The translations under genes were made by a program, and so were the position numbers. Positions 5,085-37,265 of a stretch of DNA of 64,000 nucleotides are shown piece after piece. The stretch lies in NCBI RefSeq assembly GCF_016820655.1, contig NZ_WSFT01000039.1, positions 62,001-126,000 of the forward strand, in the 5' to 3' direction. This stretch comes from Anaeromonas frigoriresistens (GTDB lineage: Bacteria; Bacillota; Clostridia; Tissierellales; SIT17). Each line of letters begins with the position of its first letter. Within the stretch, counting starts at the first letter, position 1. The notes beneath the pieces are model-generated. The model was given only the letters and a program-made list of their open reading frames with translations, did no database searches and was not told where the DNA came from.

Positions 5085-5486
5085 ATGTATTTTCCTTCAA
5101 AAAGAGATTTATGGTTAGGTGTAGCGATTTTTGGAATTATAGGATTTACCACTCTATTTATATTGGTGGATTTAGGAATAACTATGGTTAGTATTATTAT
5201 GATATTATCATTTTTATTTGCTGCTTGGCTTTGGTTTGGTACAGGGTATTACATTGAAGATGAAATGATAAGAATTAAGTGTGGCCCATTTAGATCAAAA
5301 GTAAATATTAAAGACATAGAATTAATAAAGAAAACAAATAATCCTATATCGTCTCCAGCATTATCTTTAGATAGAATAGAACTAAAAAGTGCTAATAGAC
5401 TTTTAGCTATAATCTCACCAAAGGATAAAATGAAATTTGCAGAGGTTTTAAAGGAGAAAAATCCAAATATCAGTATAGAATTATAG
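5085..5486 (+). CDS. Membrane-anchored bacterial PH-domain protein (bPH_4 / SunI-like)
   Basis: 133 residues from ATG 5085, the start that fits the AGAGGTGA site; an in-frame GTG at 5076 overlaps the site. Two adjacent membrane segments (about 9-27 and 31-50) are followed by a small beta-rich domain with YYIEDEMIRIKCGPF, ALSLDRIELKS and SPKDKMKFAEVL. This is the layout of the bPH_4 family, to which the sublancin immunity protein SunI belongs. It lies just upstream of a lantibiotic-type ABC resistance locus, which makes an envelope-protection role plausible but unproven. Confidence 0.6.
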   Translation: MYFPSKRDLWLGVAIFGIIGFTTLFILVDLGITMVSIIMILSFLFAAWLWFGTGYYIEDEMIRIKCGPFRSKVNIKDIELIKKTNNPISSPALSLDRIELKSANRLLAIISPKDKMKFAEVLKEKNPNISIEL

Positions 5487-5521
5487 TTTTAAAGGTGAGA
5501 TTCTAGTATAAAGCTTAAATT

Positions 5522-5571
5522 TTTATAAAAGAATCCCCAGAGAGAATTCTCTCTGGGGATTCTTTTATAAA
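5522..5571. terminator. Intrinsic terminator (25-bp palindrome)
   Basis: A perfect palindrome centred on GAATTC, with GAATCCCCAGAGA on the left and its complement plus TCTTTTAT on the right. It isolates the resistance locus that follows from upstream transcription. Confidence 0.85.
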
Positions 5572-5578
5572 TTTAAAT

Positions 5579-5618
5579 CTTAAGGATAACTTAAGGTTAT
5601 CTGAAAGCCTGCTTAAGG
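5579..5618 (+). promoter_or_regulatory. Three CTTAAGG repeats, probable response-regulator operator
   Basis: CTTAAGG occurs at 5579-5585, 5590-5596 and 5612-5618, that is at distances of 11 and 22 bases, so all three copies face the same side of the helix. The third copy lies where the -35 box of a promoter with -10 TATATT (5634-5639) would be. OmpR-type regulators bind phased repeats in this position, so the regulator encoded downstream (8124-8852) is the obvious candidate. Binding itself is inferred. Confidence 0.55.
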
Positions 5619-23448: not shown

Positions 23449-23469
23449 TTAAACATAAAAGTGAATATA

Positions 23470-23583
23470 ATCTTCAGGGCAGGGTGAAATTCCCGACCGG
23501 CGGTAAAGTCCGCGAGCCATATGAAAATATGGTTGACTTGGTGAGATTCCAAGACCGACAGTAAAGTCTGGATGGAAGAAGAT
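23470..23583 (+). ncRNA. FMN riboswitch (RFN element)
   Basis: The conserved RFN core is complete: ATCTTCAGGGCAGGGTGAAA at the 5' end, CCGACCGGCGGTAAAGTC, a variable stem GAGCCATATGAAAATATGGTT, TTGGTGAGATTCCAAGACCG, ACAGTAAAGTCTGGATG and the closing GAAGAAGAT that pairs with ATCTTC. It lies between the promoter and ribD and is followed by an intrinsic terminator, so FMN should stop transcription of the rib operon. Confidence 0.97.
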
Positions 23584-23646
23584 ACATAGGATATAAGTAT
23601 ACATCTATCATTATATAGGTATATTTATACTACTATTATTGTTATC

Positions 23647-25537: not shown

Positions 25538-26749
25538 ATGTATAAATTTAATACAATAGAGGAAGCAATTGAAGATATTAAAGCAGGAAAAATGATAGTA
25601 GTAGTAGATGATGAAGACAGAGAAAATGAAGGAGATTTACTTATGGCTGCTGAGAAGGCTACTCCTGAGGCGATAAATTTCATGGCCAAATATGGTAGAG
25701 GTCTTATATGTACTCCCATGACCAAGGAAAGGTTAAGTGAATTAGATATACACCCTATGGTATCTGTAAACACAGATCCAAAGGAGACAGCCTTTACGGT
25801 ATCAGTAGATTCTATAGAAACTACCACTGGAATTTCAGCAGGAGAAAGATCTATGACTGTACAAAAGTTAATAGATACTGATGCAACAGCAAAGGGCTTT
25901 AATAGACCTGGTCACATATTCCCTCTAGTAGCAAAAAAAGGAGGAGTATTAAAGAGGGCGGGACATACTGAAGCAGCAGTAGATTTGGCTAAGATGGCTG
26001 ATTTATATCCTGCAGGAGTCATATGCGAAATTATGAATGATGATGGAACAATGGCTAGAGTACCTCAGCTTATGGAATATGTAAAGGAACATAATTTAAA
26101 AATAATAACTATAGCAGATTTAATAGCATATAGAAGAGAAAATGAATCCTTAGTAAAAAGAGCCACAGAGGCCACTATGCCTTTAAAATATGGAGATTTT
26201 AAAATAGTAGGTTATGTTAATAAGCTTAATGGTGAGCATCATGTAGCCCTAGTTAAAGGAGATGTATCTGATGGAGAACCCGTATTAGTAAGGGTTCATT
26301 CAGAATGCTTAACTGGAGATGCCTTTGGATCTCTTAGATGTGATTGCGGAGATCAGTTTGATTTAGCTATGAAGAAAATTGAAAATGAAGGTAGAGGAAT
26401 ATTACTTTACATGCGACAAGAAGGTAGAGGTATAGGTTTAATCAATAAAATCAAAGCTTATGCTCTACAAGACCAGGGTATGGATACAGTAGAAGCTAAT
26501 ATAGCTTTAGGATTTCCAGAGGATATGAGAGACTATGGTATCGGTGCCCAAATATTATCAGATTTAGGGGTTAAAAAAGTAGAACTTATGACCAATAACC
26601 CTAAAAAACTATCTGGAATAAGTGGCTATGGTATAGAAGTGGTTAAAAGAGTACCGATACAAATGAATCATAATGAAAGAAATGAATATTATTTAAAAAC
26701 TAAAAAGAAAAAAATGGGACACATGCTAAATTTTAAGGAGGAAAAGTAA
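25538..26749 (+). CDS. ribBA: 3,4-dihydroxy-2-butanone 4-phosphate synthase / GTP cyclohydrolase II
   Basis: 403 residues. N-terminal DHBP synthase: [10 protein letters not shown] (25-34) and [10 protein letters not shown], with [12 protein letters not shown]-terminal GTP cyclohydrolase II: zinc cysteines C257, C268 and C270 in HSECLTG...LRCDCGDQ, and [10 protein letters not shown]. Both catalytic sites look complete, so one enzyme feeds both arms of riboflavin synthesis. Confidence 0.95.
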
Positions 26750-31258: not shown

Positions 31259-31800
31259 TCTATGGATAATAGAAAATAGAGTAGATCTTATATATGATCT
31301 AACCACCACGGGAAAAGATGGAGATGATATTATTAGAGTAATAGAATCTACGCATGGTGTCATGAATATAAAATTGTCGGAAGAATTACTGTAACTCCTT
31401 ACAGGTAAAAAATTAGAAGATCTATAAGTAAATATATTCAAAAATGATTACATAATAGTTTGAATAAGAGATAAAATAATTATCTTAATCTATCATGTAT
31501 TAAATTCACTCTCGGATTTTACTTAACTTTAAAAAATTTGATGAAAAGCAAATCATATTTTGACAAATATTACTCTGATATTATAGTCATCTAAATTTAT
31601 TTAATCATAACAAATCCCTATATTATCATACTCTGCTTCAATAAATGCTTATAAAGGCTCGTTTTGAATAACATATTTTTTGTTTATAATATCAAAAAAT
31701 ATACAAAAGAATAATTTCCTAGGAAATAATGTTGAGAAAGCAAGAAAAAGAGAGAGGTTATGATTAACATAAAATACGTAACAAAAAAACCTTTTATTCT
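31259..31800. other. Intergenic region with a gene remnant
   Basis: No intact gene. An open frame 31266-31394 without a start encodes a soluble-looking 42-residue piece (VDLIYDLTTTGKDGDDIIRV... ending in LSEELL and TAA), probably the end of a lost gene that I cannot identify. The rest, to 31800, is A+T-rich and featureless to my reading. Confidence 0.35.
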
Positions 31801-31809
31801 TTTTGAATA

Positions 31810-31838
31810 TTGACATAATTATCAATTTAATATATTAT
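31810..31838 (+). promoter_or_regulatory. Strong sigma-A promoter of a non-coding transcript
   Basis: TTGACA (31810-31815), a 17-base spacer and TATTAT (31833-31838). Transcription should begin near 31845. No ORF with a ribosome binding site follows within the next 300 bases. Confidence 0.75.
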
Positions 31839-31844
31839 CCAATT

Positions 31845-32093
31845 ATAGTAATATTGATTATGAAAGGTGGAATGCTATCCGGCAACACTTGATGTTAGCA
31901 AATCAAATAACATAAGTGAAGCGCGGAGATGAAGGGTAAAGTCTTAAATTGAATTTAATAGGAGAACAACACTGTTATTTTTAACAGTTAATTGTTATAC
32001 CTAAATTTCAATTTAGATTTTAATCCTTTATCTCGCGGCATAGTTTGTACCTGTTATTAGGGGCCGTAGATTAAAGTCTATAGCTCCTTTTTT
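31845..32093 (+). ncRNA. Candidate structured non-coding RNA, about 250 nt
   Basis: A consensus promoter and an intrinsic terminator bracket a stretch with no ORF. Its core folds into one long rod: GAGATGAAGG (31926-31935) pairs with 32025-32034 (one G-U), AAATTGAA (31946-31953) with TTCAATTT (32007-32014), AACAA (31965-31969) with TTGTT (31992-31996), and ACTGTTA (31971-31977) with TAACAGT (31982-31988) around a TTTT loop. A 5' domain contains TGCTATCCGGCAACA with a possible small hairpin to TGTTAGCA. Its G+C content is higher than that of its surroundings. It could be a known clostridial RNA such as the raiA or 6S type; I cannot assign it. Confidence 0.65.
32060..32093 (+). terminator. Intrinsic terminator of the candidate ncRNA
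   Basis: GGGGC (32060-32064) and GTAGA (32066-32070) pair with TCTAT and GCTCC (32077-32087), with one C-A mismatch, followed by six T. Confidence 0.8.
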
Positions 32094-32154
32094 ATATGCT
32101 TTTTTTCATAATTATATTGCTAAATAAAAATAGGAAAAGAGGAAAGTGAAAATA

Positions 32155-32976
32155 ATGTTAAATGGATTATTTAAATATCTAAAGAAACCAGAATTGTATG
32201 CATCCAACACCTGTAAGTTTTGGGATGATGAACATATTTCAAAAGGAATGTTAGAGGCTCATTTGAATCCTCAATGGGATGCAGCTAGTAGAAAAAATGA
32301 TTTTATCCTGGAATCAGTAGAGTGGATTTCCAATATAGTGCCATCATCAAAATATAAAACACTTTTAGATTTAGGATGTGGACCTGGTCTTTATGCTGAA
32401 AGATTTTTTGAAAAAGGATATCAGGTTACTGGTATAGATTTTGCCAAGAGATCAATTAATTATGCTAAGGAAAGGAATCAAGATATAAATTATCTTTATA
32501 AAAATTATTTAGATATTAATTATAAAAATGAATTCGATTTAGTGACATTGATTTACTGTGACTATGGAGTATTGTCCAGTGATAATAGAGAAATTTTATT
32601 AAAGAAAATTTATGACTCCTTAAAGAAGGGAGGGAAATTTATATTTGATGTTTTTACTATAAAGGAATTTGAAGATAAGAAAGAGAATAATACATGGTAT
32701 GTAAGTGAAAAAGGTGGATATTGGAAACCTGATAGACATATATGTCTAGAATCTCATTTTATTTATGAAGATGATATTAGATTAGATCAATATACAATAA
32801 TTGATAAGTTTGGAAAGGTAGATATAATAAGAAATTGGTTTAAAGGATATACAAAGAGTACTATAATTGCAGAAATCAAAAAAGCTGGTTTTAGTAAAAT
32901 AGAATTATATTCAGATGTAACGGGTAAGCCATATTGTGAAGAACCTAAAACTATGTGTATTGTGGTTGAAAAATAA
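32155..32976 (+). CDS. Class I SAM-dependent methyltransferase
   Basis: About 273 residues. ATG 32155 is preferred because AAGAGGAAAG ends about 11 bases before it; GTG 32146 lies too close. The SAM-binding motif LLDLGCGPGLYAERF, the acidic residue in VTGIDFAKRS and the post-motif FDLVTLIYCDYGVLS are typical of methyltransferases of the Methyltransf_11/25 type. The N-terminal 60 residues with KFWDDEHISKGMLEAHLNP may close over the active site. Small-molecule acceptor unknown. Confidence 0.8.
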   Translation: MLNGLFKYLKKPELYASNTCKFWDDEHISKGMLEAHLNPQWDAASRKNDFILESVEWISNIVPSSKYKTLLDLGCGPGLYAERFFEKGYQVTGIDFAKRSINYAKERNQDINYLYKNYLDINYKNEFDLVTLIYCDYGVLSSDNREILLKKIYDSLKKGGKFIFDVFTIKEFEDKKENNTWYVSEKGGYWKPDRHICLESHFIYEDDIRLDQYTIIDKFGKVDIIRNWFKGYTKSTIIAEIKKAGFSKIELYSDVTGKPYCEEPKTMCIVVEK

Positions 32977-33011: not shown

Positions 33012-33512
33012 TTGAAAATTTATGAAACTGATAGGTTATACCTTAGAACCTTAAACATAGAAGATATTGACTCTGTAATGAGCTTCTGGGGAGATGAAGA
33101 AGTTATGAAATATTGTGGAGGAGCAGGGAATAGAGAACAGGAGATGAAATCTCTCAAGTTTTACATAAATCTTCAAAAGGAAAAAGGACACTCTCCCTAT
33201 GCAATAATTTTAAAAGAAAATAATGAAGTAATAGGGGTATGTGGATTTAATCCTCCTGATAATAATGAAGATATAGAATTAGTCTATCACTTTGCAAAAG
33301 GATACTGGGGAAAAGGATACGCAACTGAGGCAGCTATAGCTTGTGTGAATTATGCAAGAAAATATTTAAATAGGGATACAATAGTTGCTTTTATCGATCC
33401 TTCAAATAAATCTTCTGAAAATATTTTAATAAAATTAGGTTTTATATTTAAAGGTGTGAAGTGGCATGGAGGAAGTAAGAATGAAGATCTGTATTTTGAA
33501 CTCACTTTATAG
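33012..33512 (+). CDS. RimJ/RimL-type GNAT acetyltransferase
   Basis: 166 residues from TTG 33012 with AGGAGGGG upstream. It begins with ETDRLYLRTLNIEDIDSVM, typical of the RimJ/RimL group. The acetyl-CoA loop is AKGYWGKGYATEA, followed by IDPSNKSSENILIKLGF. Members acetylate ribosomal protein N-termini, tRNA-linked or small-molecule amines; the target is open. It follows the methyltransferase by 35 bases and may be in the same transcript. Confidence 0.85.
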   Translation: MKIYETDRLYLRTLNIEDIDSVMSFWGDEEVMKYCGGAGNREQEMKSLKFYINLQKEKGHSPYAIILKENNEVIGVCGFNPPDNNEDIELVYHFAKGYWGKGYATEAAIACVNYARKYLNRDTIVAFIDPSNKSSENILIKLGFIFKGVKWHGGSKNEDLYFELTL

Positions 33513-33784: not shown

Positions 33785-33802
33785 ATGGGAGTGTATATAA
33801 TT

Positions 33803-34919
33803 ATGGAAGTAGTAAAAGTAAAAACAGAAGAAGGAAAAGAGAGATACTTTGTAGCAGATGATAATGGATTACCTATAGAGTCAATACTAAAGTTTATTAA
33901 GTTTAAGGATAATACTAATTATGCAAGAAATACATTAAGAATGTATTGCCAACATTTAAAACTATACTTTGAGTACCTATAACAAAGAGAGTTGAATTTT
34001 CAAAAAGTAACTATTGATGATTTAGCATTATTTGTGAATTGGTTGCAAAATCCATATAAAAGTCTAAAGGTCATCCCTACACACCAAGTACAAACAGCAA
34101 GAAGTCCAAGAACAGTAAACATTATAGTAAATACTGTATTGGCATTTTATGATTATATACTAAGGCACGAGGAATATAGTAATAATATTTCTGACAGACT
34201 AAAGAAGTTTGTGGCTACACCAAGTAGAAACTTTAAAGGTTTCTTGTATGGAATAGCACATGAGCAAAAGAAAGTAACGAGCAACATATTAAAACTGAAA
34301 GTACCTAAGTCTAAGCCAAAGACATTATCAAAAGAAGAAATAGGGACACTTATAAGAGCCTGTAATAACCTTAGAGATAGGTTTCTATTAACATTGTTAT
34401 ATGAAACTGGCATGAGAATAGGCGAAGCCTTATCTTTGTGGATTGAGGACTTTGATATAAGCGATATGGTTATAGATTTACAAGATAGAGGTGAACTTGA
34501 AAATAATGCTGAAATAAAGACAGTATAAAGTCCTCGAAGAATAGACATATCTCAAAACTTAGCAGATAAATTTATGGAATATATAGCAGATTATCATACA
34601 GAAGAAGTTGAAACTAATCATATATTCATTAAGTTAAGTGAAGCAATAAATATAAACCTATGAATTATACTGATACAGATAATTTATTTAGAACATTAAA
34701 GAAAAAGACAGATATATATGTTACTCCACATATGTTTAGACATAGTTCATTAACTTTATTAAGAATGGCAGGATGGCAACCTGAACTAGAGCAGGGCATA
34801 AAAACATTTATACTACTTTAAACACTTATATACACCCTTCTGACGAAGAAATAACGAAAGAGTTTAATAAAACTCAAACCAATTTAGACTTAAACATATA
34901 CAACGAAGGGGATGAATAA
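33803..34919 (+). pseudogene. tnpA: Tn554 TnpA-like tyrosine recombinase, broken
   Basis: From ATG 33803 the frame encodes an N-terminal SAM-like DNA-binding domain (TNYARNTLRMYCQHLKLYFEYL), stops at TAA 33980-33982, and continues in the same frame to a second TAA at 34526-34528. It then shifts frame around 34660 and again around 34790. The catalytic residues of an integrase can still be read across the breaks: ETGMRIGEALSL (arginine I), HMFRHSSLTLL (HxxR) and GHKNIYTTLNTYIHP (histidine and tyrosine). Total length about 370 codons, close to Tn554 TnpA (361). It ends one base before the GTG of tnpB. Confidence 0.85.
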
Positions 34920-34920
34920 A

Positions 34921-36888
34921 GTGAAGGATTTACAGATAATAAAAAGCAATAAGCAAAGTAAGTAGGATGAAATAATCGAATATCTTAGTCAAGATAATAG
35001 ATATTGATTAGAAAATGATAAATGGGATTTTGCAAAAGAGTTTTTCATTGCTAAATCTATAACAGTTGGGACATCTGGGTATTCAAGTGTTGATTTTTCT
35101 GATTTTGATAATAAATATATAAAAAACGAATTTAAGTTTTATGTATGTTATAGTTTTAAAAATAAACTTTTAAAGAACTCATATATTGCTAAGATTAGAA
35201 GTTCTTTAATATATATATCTATATTTTTCAATAAAAATTTTAATACTTTAAAGACACTTCAAGATATAAATATTAATGAATTTAATATCAAATACAATAG
35301 TTATTTATTGAGTATCTCAAAATCTAAATCAGCCGAAATGTCAAGTGTATTCGGAACAATAGACTTTATCAAAGATTTCTATGATGATAGAGAAGAAATT
35401 GAAAAAGATATATGGTATTCAAAAAATATTAAAGGTGCTAAAATACCTGCAAGTGGTTCAAGTCATGGTAATTATAATTCAATTAATTTTACTGCTATAC
35501 CTTTATATTATAGAGAAACTGTTAAAAGATATTTTAGAACAATAATTACTAAAAAAAGTTGGATGACTTGCAATAATACACTTAAATATTTAAGTTATTT
35601 TTTTAATTATCTTTATTCAAATAAATATCAAGATGGTTGTATTGAAGATTTAAATAGAAATGATATAGAAAAATATTTATACTATGTGTCAAATGACAGA
35701 AAAGATAAAAATAAAACGGAAAACTCTAAGTATATAAGTTTTGTTAGAACATTTTTAGAATATATTCAAATGGCTCAATATGATAAAGCACCAAAAAAAG
35801 AAGTATCATTTTTAATATTTCAAGATGACATTCCTAAAAGAGAACTAAACAAAGATGAAGTAAAAAAAGCAAAGTTTGTTCCAGAACCTATATTAAAACA
35901 ATTAGATAATAATATCATGGATTTAGATAGACCACAATTCATACCTATTTATATTCTTCTTCGTGAAACTGGATGGAGAGGTACGGATATATTAAACCTT
36001 AGATATGATAATTGCTTAGAGCAGATATGGAATAGTAAAGAAGAGAAATATAACTATTACCTTTGTGGTGAAATAACTAAAACAGGTATATCACAACTTA
36101 AAATTCCGATAAGAGATAAAGTTGCAGAAATGATTCAAAAATCTATTGATAAAGCAAAAGAACTAAGCACAGAAGAAAATAATCCTAAGAAGCATTTATT
36201 CAATACTTATGAAGGTAAATTAAAAGGCAAACCATTGGCGAAAGCCACACTTTTAGCAACGATTAAGAGGCTAATAGTTCAAAAAGATATTAGAGATGCT
36301 AACGGTAAATTATACCACTTTAGGCTTCATTCATTAAGACATACAAGAGCCAAAGAATATGTAGAACAAGGTATGGGAATAAGCGTTATACAACAGATTT
36401 TAGGACATCAAAGTTTACAAATGACAGTTCATTATGCTACTGTATCGGAAAATGTATTATATGAGAAATGGAAGAATACAGAGGACTTAGAATTGTTTAA
36501 AGTTGATACTACAACTAATGAACTTGTTGAAGTAGATACATCTTCTACCGAAGGTGAAAATCTCATTAGATATGAATATGTAAAAAAGAATTTAGATGCC
36601 GTTAGAGTTCCATTTGGAGTATGCTTTAAAGCCTCTAAATTACCTTGTAAGCAACAGATGAACCATTGTTTAACCTGTGCAAGTTTCTGTACTACGGTTG
36701 AAAATATACCTGAATATGAAGAAGAAATTGAAAAGGTTAGGCAACAAATCGAAATAAGTGATAGATGTGGCAGAGAACTTTGGGCAGAGAAAAATAAACA
36801 GTATTTAAATATATTAGAGCAAACATTGGGAAAAGTTAAAGAACATAAATTAGTTCATAAAAATGGAAAGTCAAGGGAGGAGTTATAA
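34921..36888 (+). pseudogene. tnpB: Tn554 TnpB-like tyrosine recombinase with two early stop codons
   Basis: The natural frame starts at GTG 34921 just after tnpA and is 656 codons long, like Tn554 TnpB (630). Codon 15 is TAG (34963-34965) and codon 29 is TGA (35005-35007); from there it is open to the end. All catalytic residues remain: RETGWRGTDIL, HSLRHTRAKEYV and LGHQSLQMTVHYATVS. A C-terminal cysteine cluster (CKQQMNHCLTCASFC) is present. Internal starts such as the TTG at 35308 could still give a shortened protein, but the N-terminus would be lost. Confidence 0.8.
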
Positions 36889-37265
36889 TGGCAGACCATA
36901 CTGAAGGACTTAAAAGATATGCAAAACAGAAAACACAATTAACTTTAGAAAAATTAGATAAAGCCATTAGAGAACTTTCTTTGAATGAAGAAAAAATTAA
37001 CTTTAATAGTGTATCTAATTTAAGTGGAGTTTCCAAGACTTTTCTTTATAACAACGAAGAAGTTAAGAAAAGAATTGAAAAACTTAGAGATAAACAGACG
37101 AGTAAAACTATGAATAAAAGAGCCAAATATGATAAAACTGCTAAAGCAAAAGATATTATTATAATGTCAAAAGATAAAAAAATTAAAGAATTAGAAGAAG
37201 AAAACAAGAAACTTAAAGAGCAATTAGAGATTATTAGAGGTAAATTATATGAAAATTTAAAATAA
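36888..37265 (+). CDS. tnpC: Tn554 TnpC-like protein (DUF6262 type)
   Basis: 125 residues, the same length as Tn554 TnpC. Its ATG overlaps the tnpB stop (TAATG). An HTH-like N-terminal part (TLEKLDKAIRELSLNEEKI, VSKTFLYNNEEV) is followed by a C-terminal coiled coil rich in Lys and Glu (about residues 80-120). In Tn554 this gene product helps set insertion frequency and orientation. It is the only intact gene of the three. Confidence 0.8.
   Translation: MADHTEGLKRYAKQKTQLTLEKLDKAIRELSLNEEKINFNSVSNLSGVSKTFLYNNEEVKKRIEKLRDKQTSKTMNKRAKYDKTAKAKDIIIMSKDKKIKELEEENKKLKEQLEIIRGKLYENLK

Follow-up and report, generated by a model that had tools for sequence, protein, structure and literature searches.

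The yjdF riboswitch binds diverse azaaromatic compounds (PMC4793209) and is a leader of Firmicutes which is thought to sense toxic-type aromatics, controlling the gene that follows. It is as a leader of this sort that the RNA considered here would resemble it. The two nevertheless differ, as no scanned member of the present family gives an Rfam match to yjdF, the gene set is a different one, and an outer helix and a long rod, both seen in this family, are not mentioned in the abstract on yjdF (PMC4793209). Antibiotic-responsive leaders have been found as well by Term-seq (Dar 2016, via PMC11109978; review PMC5418344). The likeness in this case is a terminator placed between a promoter and a resistance-type gene, with induction presumably occurring via read-through. 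These Term-seq leaders, however, reportedly rest mainly on short upstream ORFs, and no ORF is conserved in the present family.

Other described RNAs are more distant. The smtA motif, or ‘Soda Lake RNA’, is exclusive to Thioalkalivibrio, is longer than 350 nt, and is not considered by its authors to be cis-regulatory; the RNA considered here occurs in unrelated organisms and is of another size, and is thereby set apart by description rather than by sequence (PMC11109978). The raiA and 6S RNAs are alike in size and in their rod-like look, and an earlier note on this DNA had likened the RNA to them. Neither model matches, however, either in the window, that is, in the whole 64-kb stretch of DNA which was analysed, or in 20 homologues, and this RNA instead is associated in cis with genes. 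With Rfam 15 cmscan at gathering cut-offs the window gives nothing at this RNA, its sole match being an FMN riboswitch (RF00050, 125 bits, 23466-23587) upstream of riboflavin genes (ORFs at 25538 and 26750). A permissive scan of the region returns unrelated families alone, far under their cut-offs, and among the 20 homologues no other family either exceeds its gathering cut-off. The RNA is absent from Rfam and appears to be undescribed, as the earlier note had suspected it might be. The family was not recognized in PMC11109978 nor by keyword in PMC6429828, PMC2864571, or PMC8632094, a search which subscription journals mostly lie outside of, and an earlier description is possible.

The locus and its family

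Features of the locus, in window positions, are as follows:

31810-31838, plus strand: sigma-70-type promoter, i.e., TTGACA (31810-31815), 17 nt, and TATTAT (31833-31838)
31846-31863, plus strand: 5' arm of the outer helix, starting at about the predicted transcription start (31844-31846)
31860-31932, plus strand: conserved 5' (sensor-like) domain, with consensus RAAGGUGGNAUGNNRUYCGGCNA-hairpin-GCNYGGAGA
31878-31881 (UCCG) with 31924-31927 (CGGA), plus strand: P0, 98.5% paired
31886-31897 with 31908-31918, plus strand: P1 hairpin, with a bulged purine, a 10-nt loop, and two-sided compensatory changes
31926-32034, plus strand: long rod with apical hairpin CUGUU/AACAG, from the MFE fold and own-versus-cross duplex test; lower-rod cells 87% paired
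32016-32039, plus strand: rod 3' strand, a candidate antiterminator able to pair with the terminator 5' arm
32035-32056, plus strand: tail, pairing in the terminated fold with AAGGU...GCUAUCCG of the 5' domain
32059-32093, plus strand: intrinsic terminator (hairpin 32059-32088, U-run 32088-32093)
32106-32122, plus strand: 3' arm of the outer helix, past the terminator and covarying with the transcript start
32155-32976, plus strand: class I SAM-dependent methyltransferase, the proposed regulated gene (Pfam Methyltransf_25, 1.7e-15)
33012-33512, plus strand: GNAT acetyltransferase, possibly the operon's second gene (Pfam PF13302, 1.8e-32), 35 nt past the methyltransferase

The promoter has 11/12 consensus matches. 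As 7 promoter-like sites are found in this AT-rich DNA versus 9.5 expected, one such site alone is unremarkable. Across the family, the -10 of the best promoter-like match ends 19-22 nt before the conserved 5' domain in 21/36 members, the window's spacing included. No ORF of at least 60 aa overlaps 31442-32145. Positions 31842-32093 fold with an MFE of -82.6 kcal/mol versus -47.9 ± 4.5 kcal/mol for 200 dinucleotide shuffles (z = -7.67, with no shuffle equal), and the predicted fold is a single long rod along with a 5' domain that bears a side hairpin. The terminator hairpin, which a simple terminator scan missed, is followed by T6 and has a folding energy of -13.9 kcal/mol. Judging from the position of the outer-helix 3' arm, the functional unit extends beyond 32093, to ~32122. 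Adjoining the unit of RNA, methyltransferase, and GNAT gene, at 33785-37265, are site-specific recombinase genes that resemble a Tn554-type set, with two tyrosine recombinase ORFs, one at 33785-34528 that seems to be broken and one at 35308-36888, followed by a TnpC-like ORF at 36888-37265.

About 37 members were found across Clostridia and relatives along with one Enterococcus plasmid, the RNA being 250-290 bases in length. BLAST of related genomes supplied two copies, of 88-90% identity, in other families of the window's order, and found no copy in the three genomes of the window's own genus, which lack the gene as well. In both of the close copies the homology spans the -35 box, the RNA, and the terminator, through to the next gene's start codon, with none upstream, and one of the two precedes a different gene than does the window's RNA. 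This end point at a start codon, together with first genes that vary from locus to locus, counts in favor of a cis-acting leader.

Named genomes, searched by pattern, yielded further copies in Alkaliphilus transvaalensis, an uncultured Alkaliphilus MAG, and Clostridiaceae bacterium M8S5. In the last of these (locus L034) the rod is large and expanded, with an extra hairpin set, and the terminator is a long-range pairing of GUAGCUUGGAGAA with UUCUC..GCUAC ahead of the U-run. With covariance models built on the 73-nt 5' domain, one family (147 genomes) yielded 15 clear members and an order that includes Alkaliphilus (297 genomes) yielded 12, with further members turning up in two more families of the phylum. 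The models' matches upstream of methyltransferase genes include Monoglobus (E 8e-8) and an Enterococcus gallinarum plasmid (E 1.4e-6), E-values which are rough. On a Monoglobus plasmid (L223; NZ_OY725736.1 183774-188577), the RNA and methyltransferase are flanked by a recombinase gene and by a cysteine-rich KTR gene. Mobilizable tet(W) elements include a class I SAM methyltransferase (PMC12904643), with no kinship to the L223 family being implied.

In a sample of 391 genomes spread evenly over the class there are strong matches in just 3 genomes, and so sporadic an element fits something that is passed sideways. Phage and plasmid collections gave no match upon DNA search with the window copy, nor did viral contigs with a strict pattern. 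A looser pattern gave at least 120 matches among viral contigs, with 0/80 of those examined with the model reaching E 0.1. Weak model matches (L041-L048, L063, L064, and L077) were excluded as probable chance matches, and L080 (29.6 bits, before a VOC/glyoxalase-like ORF) counts as no more than a possible member.

Pairing within and around the leader

With 33 members aligned, 97% of the pair cells in P0 and P1 of the 5' domain hold standard pairs. Covariation scores 0.299, versus 0.211 when shuffled (0/500 as high), and drops to <0.1 once partners are slid. Two-sided changes are seen at 8/15 pairs of the domain, all of them in P1 (8/11), with P0 displaying none and one-sided variation alone (G-C/G-U/A-U at one pair, C-G/U-G at another); the counts of two-sided changes, here and below, were taken from alignments fitted to the structure of the model or from one made with MAFFT. 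The consensus promoter, the ORF-free stretch of ~250 bases, the long rod, and the terminator which the earlier note had described are all indeed present, and homologous regions, via this covarying structure, bear out its view of a real structured RNA with a conserved 5' domain. A likeness of AAGGUGGNA to a T-box, in which an invariant UGGN binds the acceptor end of the tRNA, was considered as well, and was dropped since UGG is not kept in the family, being missing at this place in L057, L075, L076, L080, L223, and L224; there also is no cmscan match.

A terminator hairpin plus U-run is found ~180-260 nt from the start of the domain in nearly all members, with the stem covarying, i.e., with many two-sided changes. 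The rod 3' strand (typically UUUACUCU) is complementary to the terminator 5' arm (AGAGUAAA), and in 27 members a member's own strands pair better than do strands taken from other members. For nine representatives which are <72% identical, in own-versus-cross tests that still keep some shared ancestry, the antiterminator duplex comes to -12.2 (own) versus -9.4 (cross) kcal/mol (0/20000 permutations), the rod duplex to -21.9 versus -14.8 kcal/mol, and the pairing of tail with 5' domain, weaker in this regard than rod or antiterminator, to -12.6 versus -11.0 kcal/mol (363/20000 permutations). Read as alignment columns, 89% of the antiterminator is paired, and just 2 of its pairs show two-sided changes.

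The antiterminated fold is never the MFE, the terminated state being so in every member. Its cost is ~8-30 kcal/mol at full length, 0-20 at pause length, and ~15 in the window copy. Being so costly, either much energy would have to come from a signal, or the switch would be a kinetic one, or instead the antiterminator would not be the real partner. A switch is thus something that we infer. P0 and the OFF-state pairings do share overlapping segments, as a switch requires.

Just after the terminator is a segment that is complementary to the transcript's first 16-20 nt, by up to 20 pairs, giving rise to the outer helix. Among 34 members, own arms pair at -15.8 versus -8.9 kcal/mol for cross (0/20000), as compared with a control segment further downstream at -6.4 and -6.4 kcal/mol, i.e., own equal to cross. 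Twenty members have a clear promoter, and in these, counting from the -10 hexamer, complementarity amounts to 30-55% at +1 to +5, 75% at +6, and 85-100% from +7. The boundary of the outer helix coincides, that is, with the transcription start as predicted for sigma-70, which both supports the promoter call and argues for selection on an RNA rather than on a DNA repeat. As this helix needs sequence past the terminator, polymerase must pass the terminator, and it is the read-through mRNA, judging from these pairings, rather than the terminated RNA alone that is under selection as RNA.

The mean probability of the outer helix is 0.78 in computed folds of read-through leaders. In L051, L071, L075/L076, L223, and L224 the helix is weak where it exists at all, and the window copy is interrupted, with 9 pairs in its main register. 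In L040 the 3' arm still follows the terminator though the gene starts 270 nt later, suggesting that the arm has a role independent of the ribosome binding site. Decay of mRNA can be RNase J/RppH-dependent, and hiding the 5' end from decay enzymes would be the likeliest purpose of the outer helix.

The genes that follow

In all of the 36 members having a downstream ORF of at least 140 aa, the first such ORF is on the same strand as the RNA, usually 220-520 nt from the start of the 5' domain. Seen here, as would be expected of a leader, are a same-strand, 5' UTR position (36/36), an intrinsic terminator before the gene, and a conserved, covarying 5' domain. Most of the downstream genes belong to one family of class I SAM-dependent methyltransferases, with motif W-x-[DE]-x-x-[IM]-[SG]. 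Others encode nitroreductases, a nucleotidyltransferase-like protein (weak NTP_transf_2), a GNAT protein (L040), or Methyltransf_32 (L055 and L074). In the 147 genomes of one family, the RNA is present in 11/12 that possess the methyltransferase versus 4/135 that do not (Fisher p = 1.3e-12), and it adjoins a methyltransferase copy in 10/11 of the genomes carrying both. Decayed nucleotidyltransferase or methyltransferase remnants are found directly behind intact RNA in L033 (3624-4000), L036 (~5450-5600), and L049 (~1790-1920). In L033, which is from Alkaliphilus transvaalensis ATCC 700919, an intact methyltransferase gene follows such a remnant.

The AlphaFold model of the window methyltransferase has a pLDDT of 90.8, and its closest structures are small-molecule or natural-product methyltransferases, i.e., 1wzn (Z 23.0, rmsd 4.2 over 226 residues) and, as further matches, CgnL, SgMT, NmbA, PsmD, and CcbJ, a shared fold that does not establish the substrate. 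The list of structural matches is free of rRNA methyltransferases, though the enzyme may yet modify rRNA, and PADLOC returned merely weak methyltransferase-domain matches (mad2). The nucleotidyltransferase-like ORFs (L061, L032, and L035) form a family of 336-341 aa that matches NTP_transf_2/DUF4037 only marginally and, by sequence, has no relative in the PDB; the protein model in this case is poor (pLDDT 60.7), having been built from three sequences. Going by these families, the genes taken together have the look of detoxification or drug modification.

A proposed switch and its alternatives

Comparison among members, at the level of sequence, supports the family itself, the promoter position, P1/P0, the rod, the terminator, the complementarity of terminator and rod, the outer helix, and the association with genes. 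We consider it probable that the RNA is an undescribed cis-acting leader by which transcription attenuation would control a detoxification- or resistance-type gene, with induction by a toxic compound being probable and with the 5' end of the read-through mRNA closed. The leader, that is, probably serves as a switch which decides whether the message for the enzyme gets completed.

By default, the 5' domain would hold the tail, the rod would close, and RNA polymerase would halt at the terminator. Upon induction, the 5' domain would be stabilized by a signal, for which a toxic small molecule is the likeliest candidate, with P0 taking UYCG and YGGA, segments which otherwise would help to hold the tail and the rod's foot. 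The rod 3' strand, thereby released, would bind the 5' arm of the terminator, letting transcription proceed into the gene. In the resulting read-through mRNA, the first 16-20 nt would pair just past the terminator, closing the leader and hiding the 5' end, which probably would shield the mRNA from 5'-end-dependent decay. A more specific version of this mechanism can be offered tentatively. That is, the RNA may be a new class of riboswitch, one that takes a toxic natural product or an antibiotic as its direct ligand and induces varied resistance enzymes, with its 5' end captured past the terminator, thus protecting only the read-through mRNA.

Switching might be mediated not by a small molecule but by a protein, such as the methyltransferase itself or an RNA-binding antiterminator. 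Two states that are far apart in energy would be consistent with this, as would there being no known ligand. Protein mediation seems unlikely to us, however, as no regulator gene is constantly nearby and as the same RNA precedes unrelated enzymes, such that autoregulation by one of these enzymes is unlikely. A trans-acting regulatory RNA that merely lies upstream of accessory genes, in keeping with the ‘stand-alone’ RNA of the earlier note, would explain why the RNA has its own promoter, a strong terminator, and a very stable fold when short, with the terminated state as MFE throughout. Yet the invariable same-strand association is with a small set of gene types, a covarying helix requires sequence past the terminator, and close homology stops at the next gene's start codon; ‘stand-alone’ has to be given up, and a trans-acting role is distinctly improbable.

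It also is very doubtful that an antibiotic acts by stalling a ribosome on a short upstream ORF, i.e., translation-dependent attenuation of the erm type. Resistance-type genes do lie downstream, and an SD-like AAAGG followed by an AUG is present in most members. No upstream peptide is conserved across members, however, as a stop codon comes directly after the AUG in L034, L037, and L073 and other bases take the place of the AUG in L052, L053, L056, L059, L074, and L079, and AAAGG is just 4 nt from the AUG. That a mobile DNA element carries the RNA and has the inverted repeats as its ends, as patchy distribution, the three same-genus genomes without RNA and gene, and nearby recombinases might suggest, is scarcely credible, as the repeats differ in sequence between members yet stay complementary and begin at the transcription start, inside the stretch of homology, which takes in the promoter as well, rather than at its edge, a starting point that largely refutes their being terminal inverted repeats.

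An attenuating leader, then, is the preferred reading, and what the family provides is a well-delimited orphan leader that is diverse enough for biochemical work. As the leader is tied to resistance- or detoxification-like enzymes, identifying its signal would also reveal the substrates of those enzymes. A helix that reaches from the first transcribed base to past the terminator is an unusual design, one which offers a testable link between antitermination and 5'-end protection. Should the signal be an antibiotic, then this leader would be an RNA that senses a drug directly, and would do so in a context of mobile resistance.
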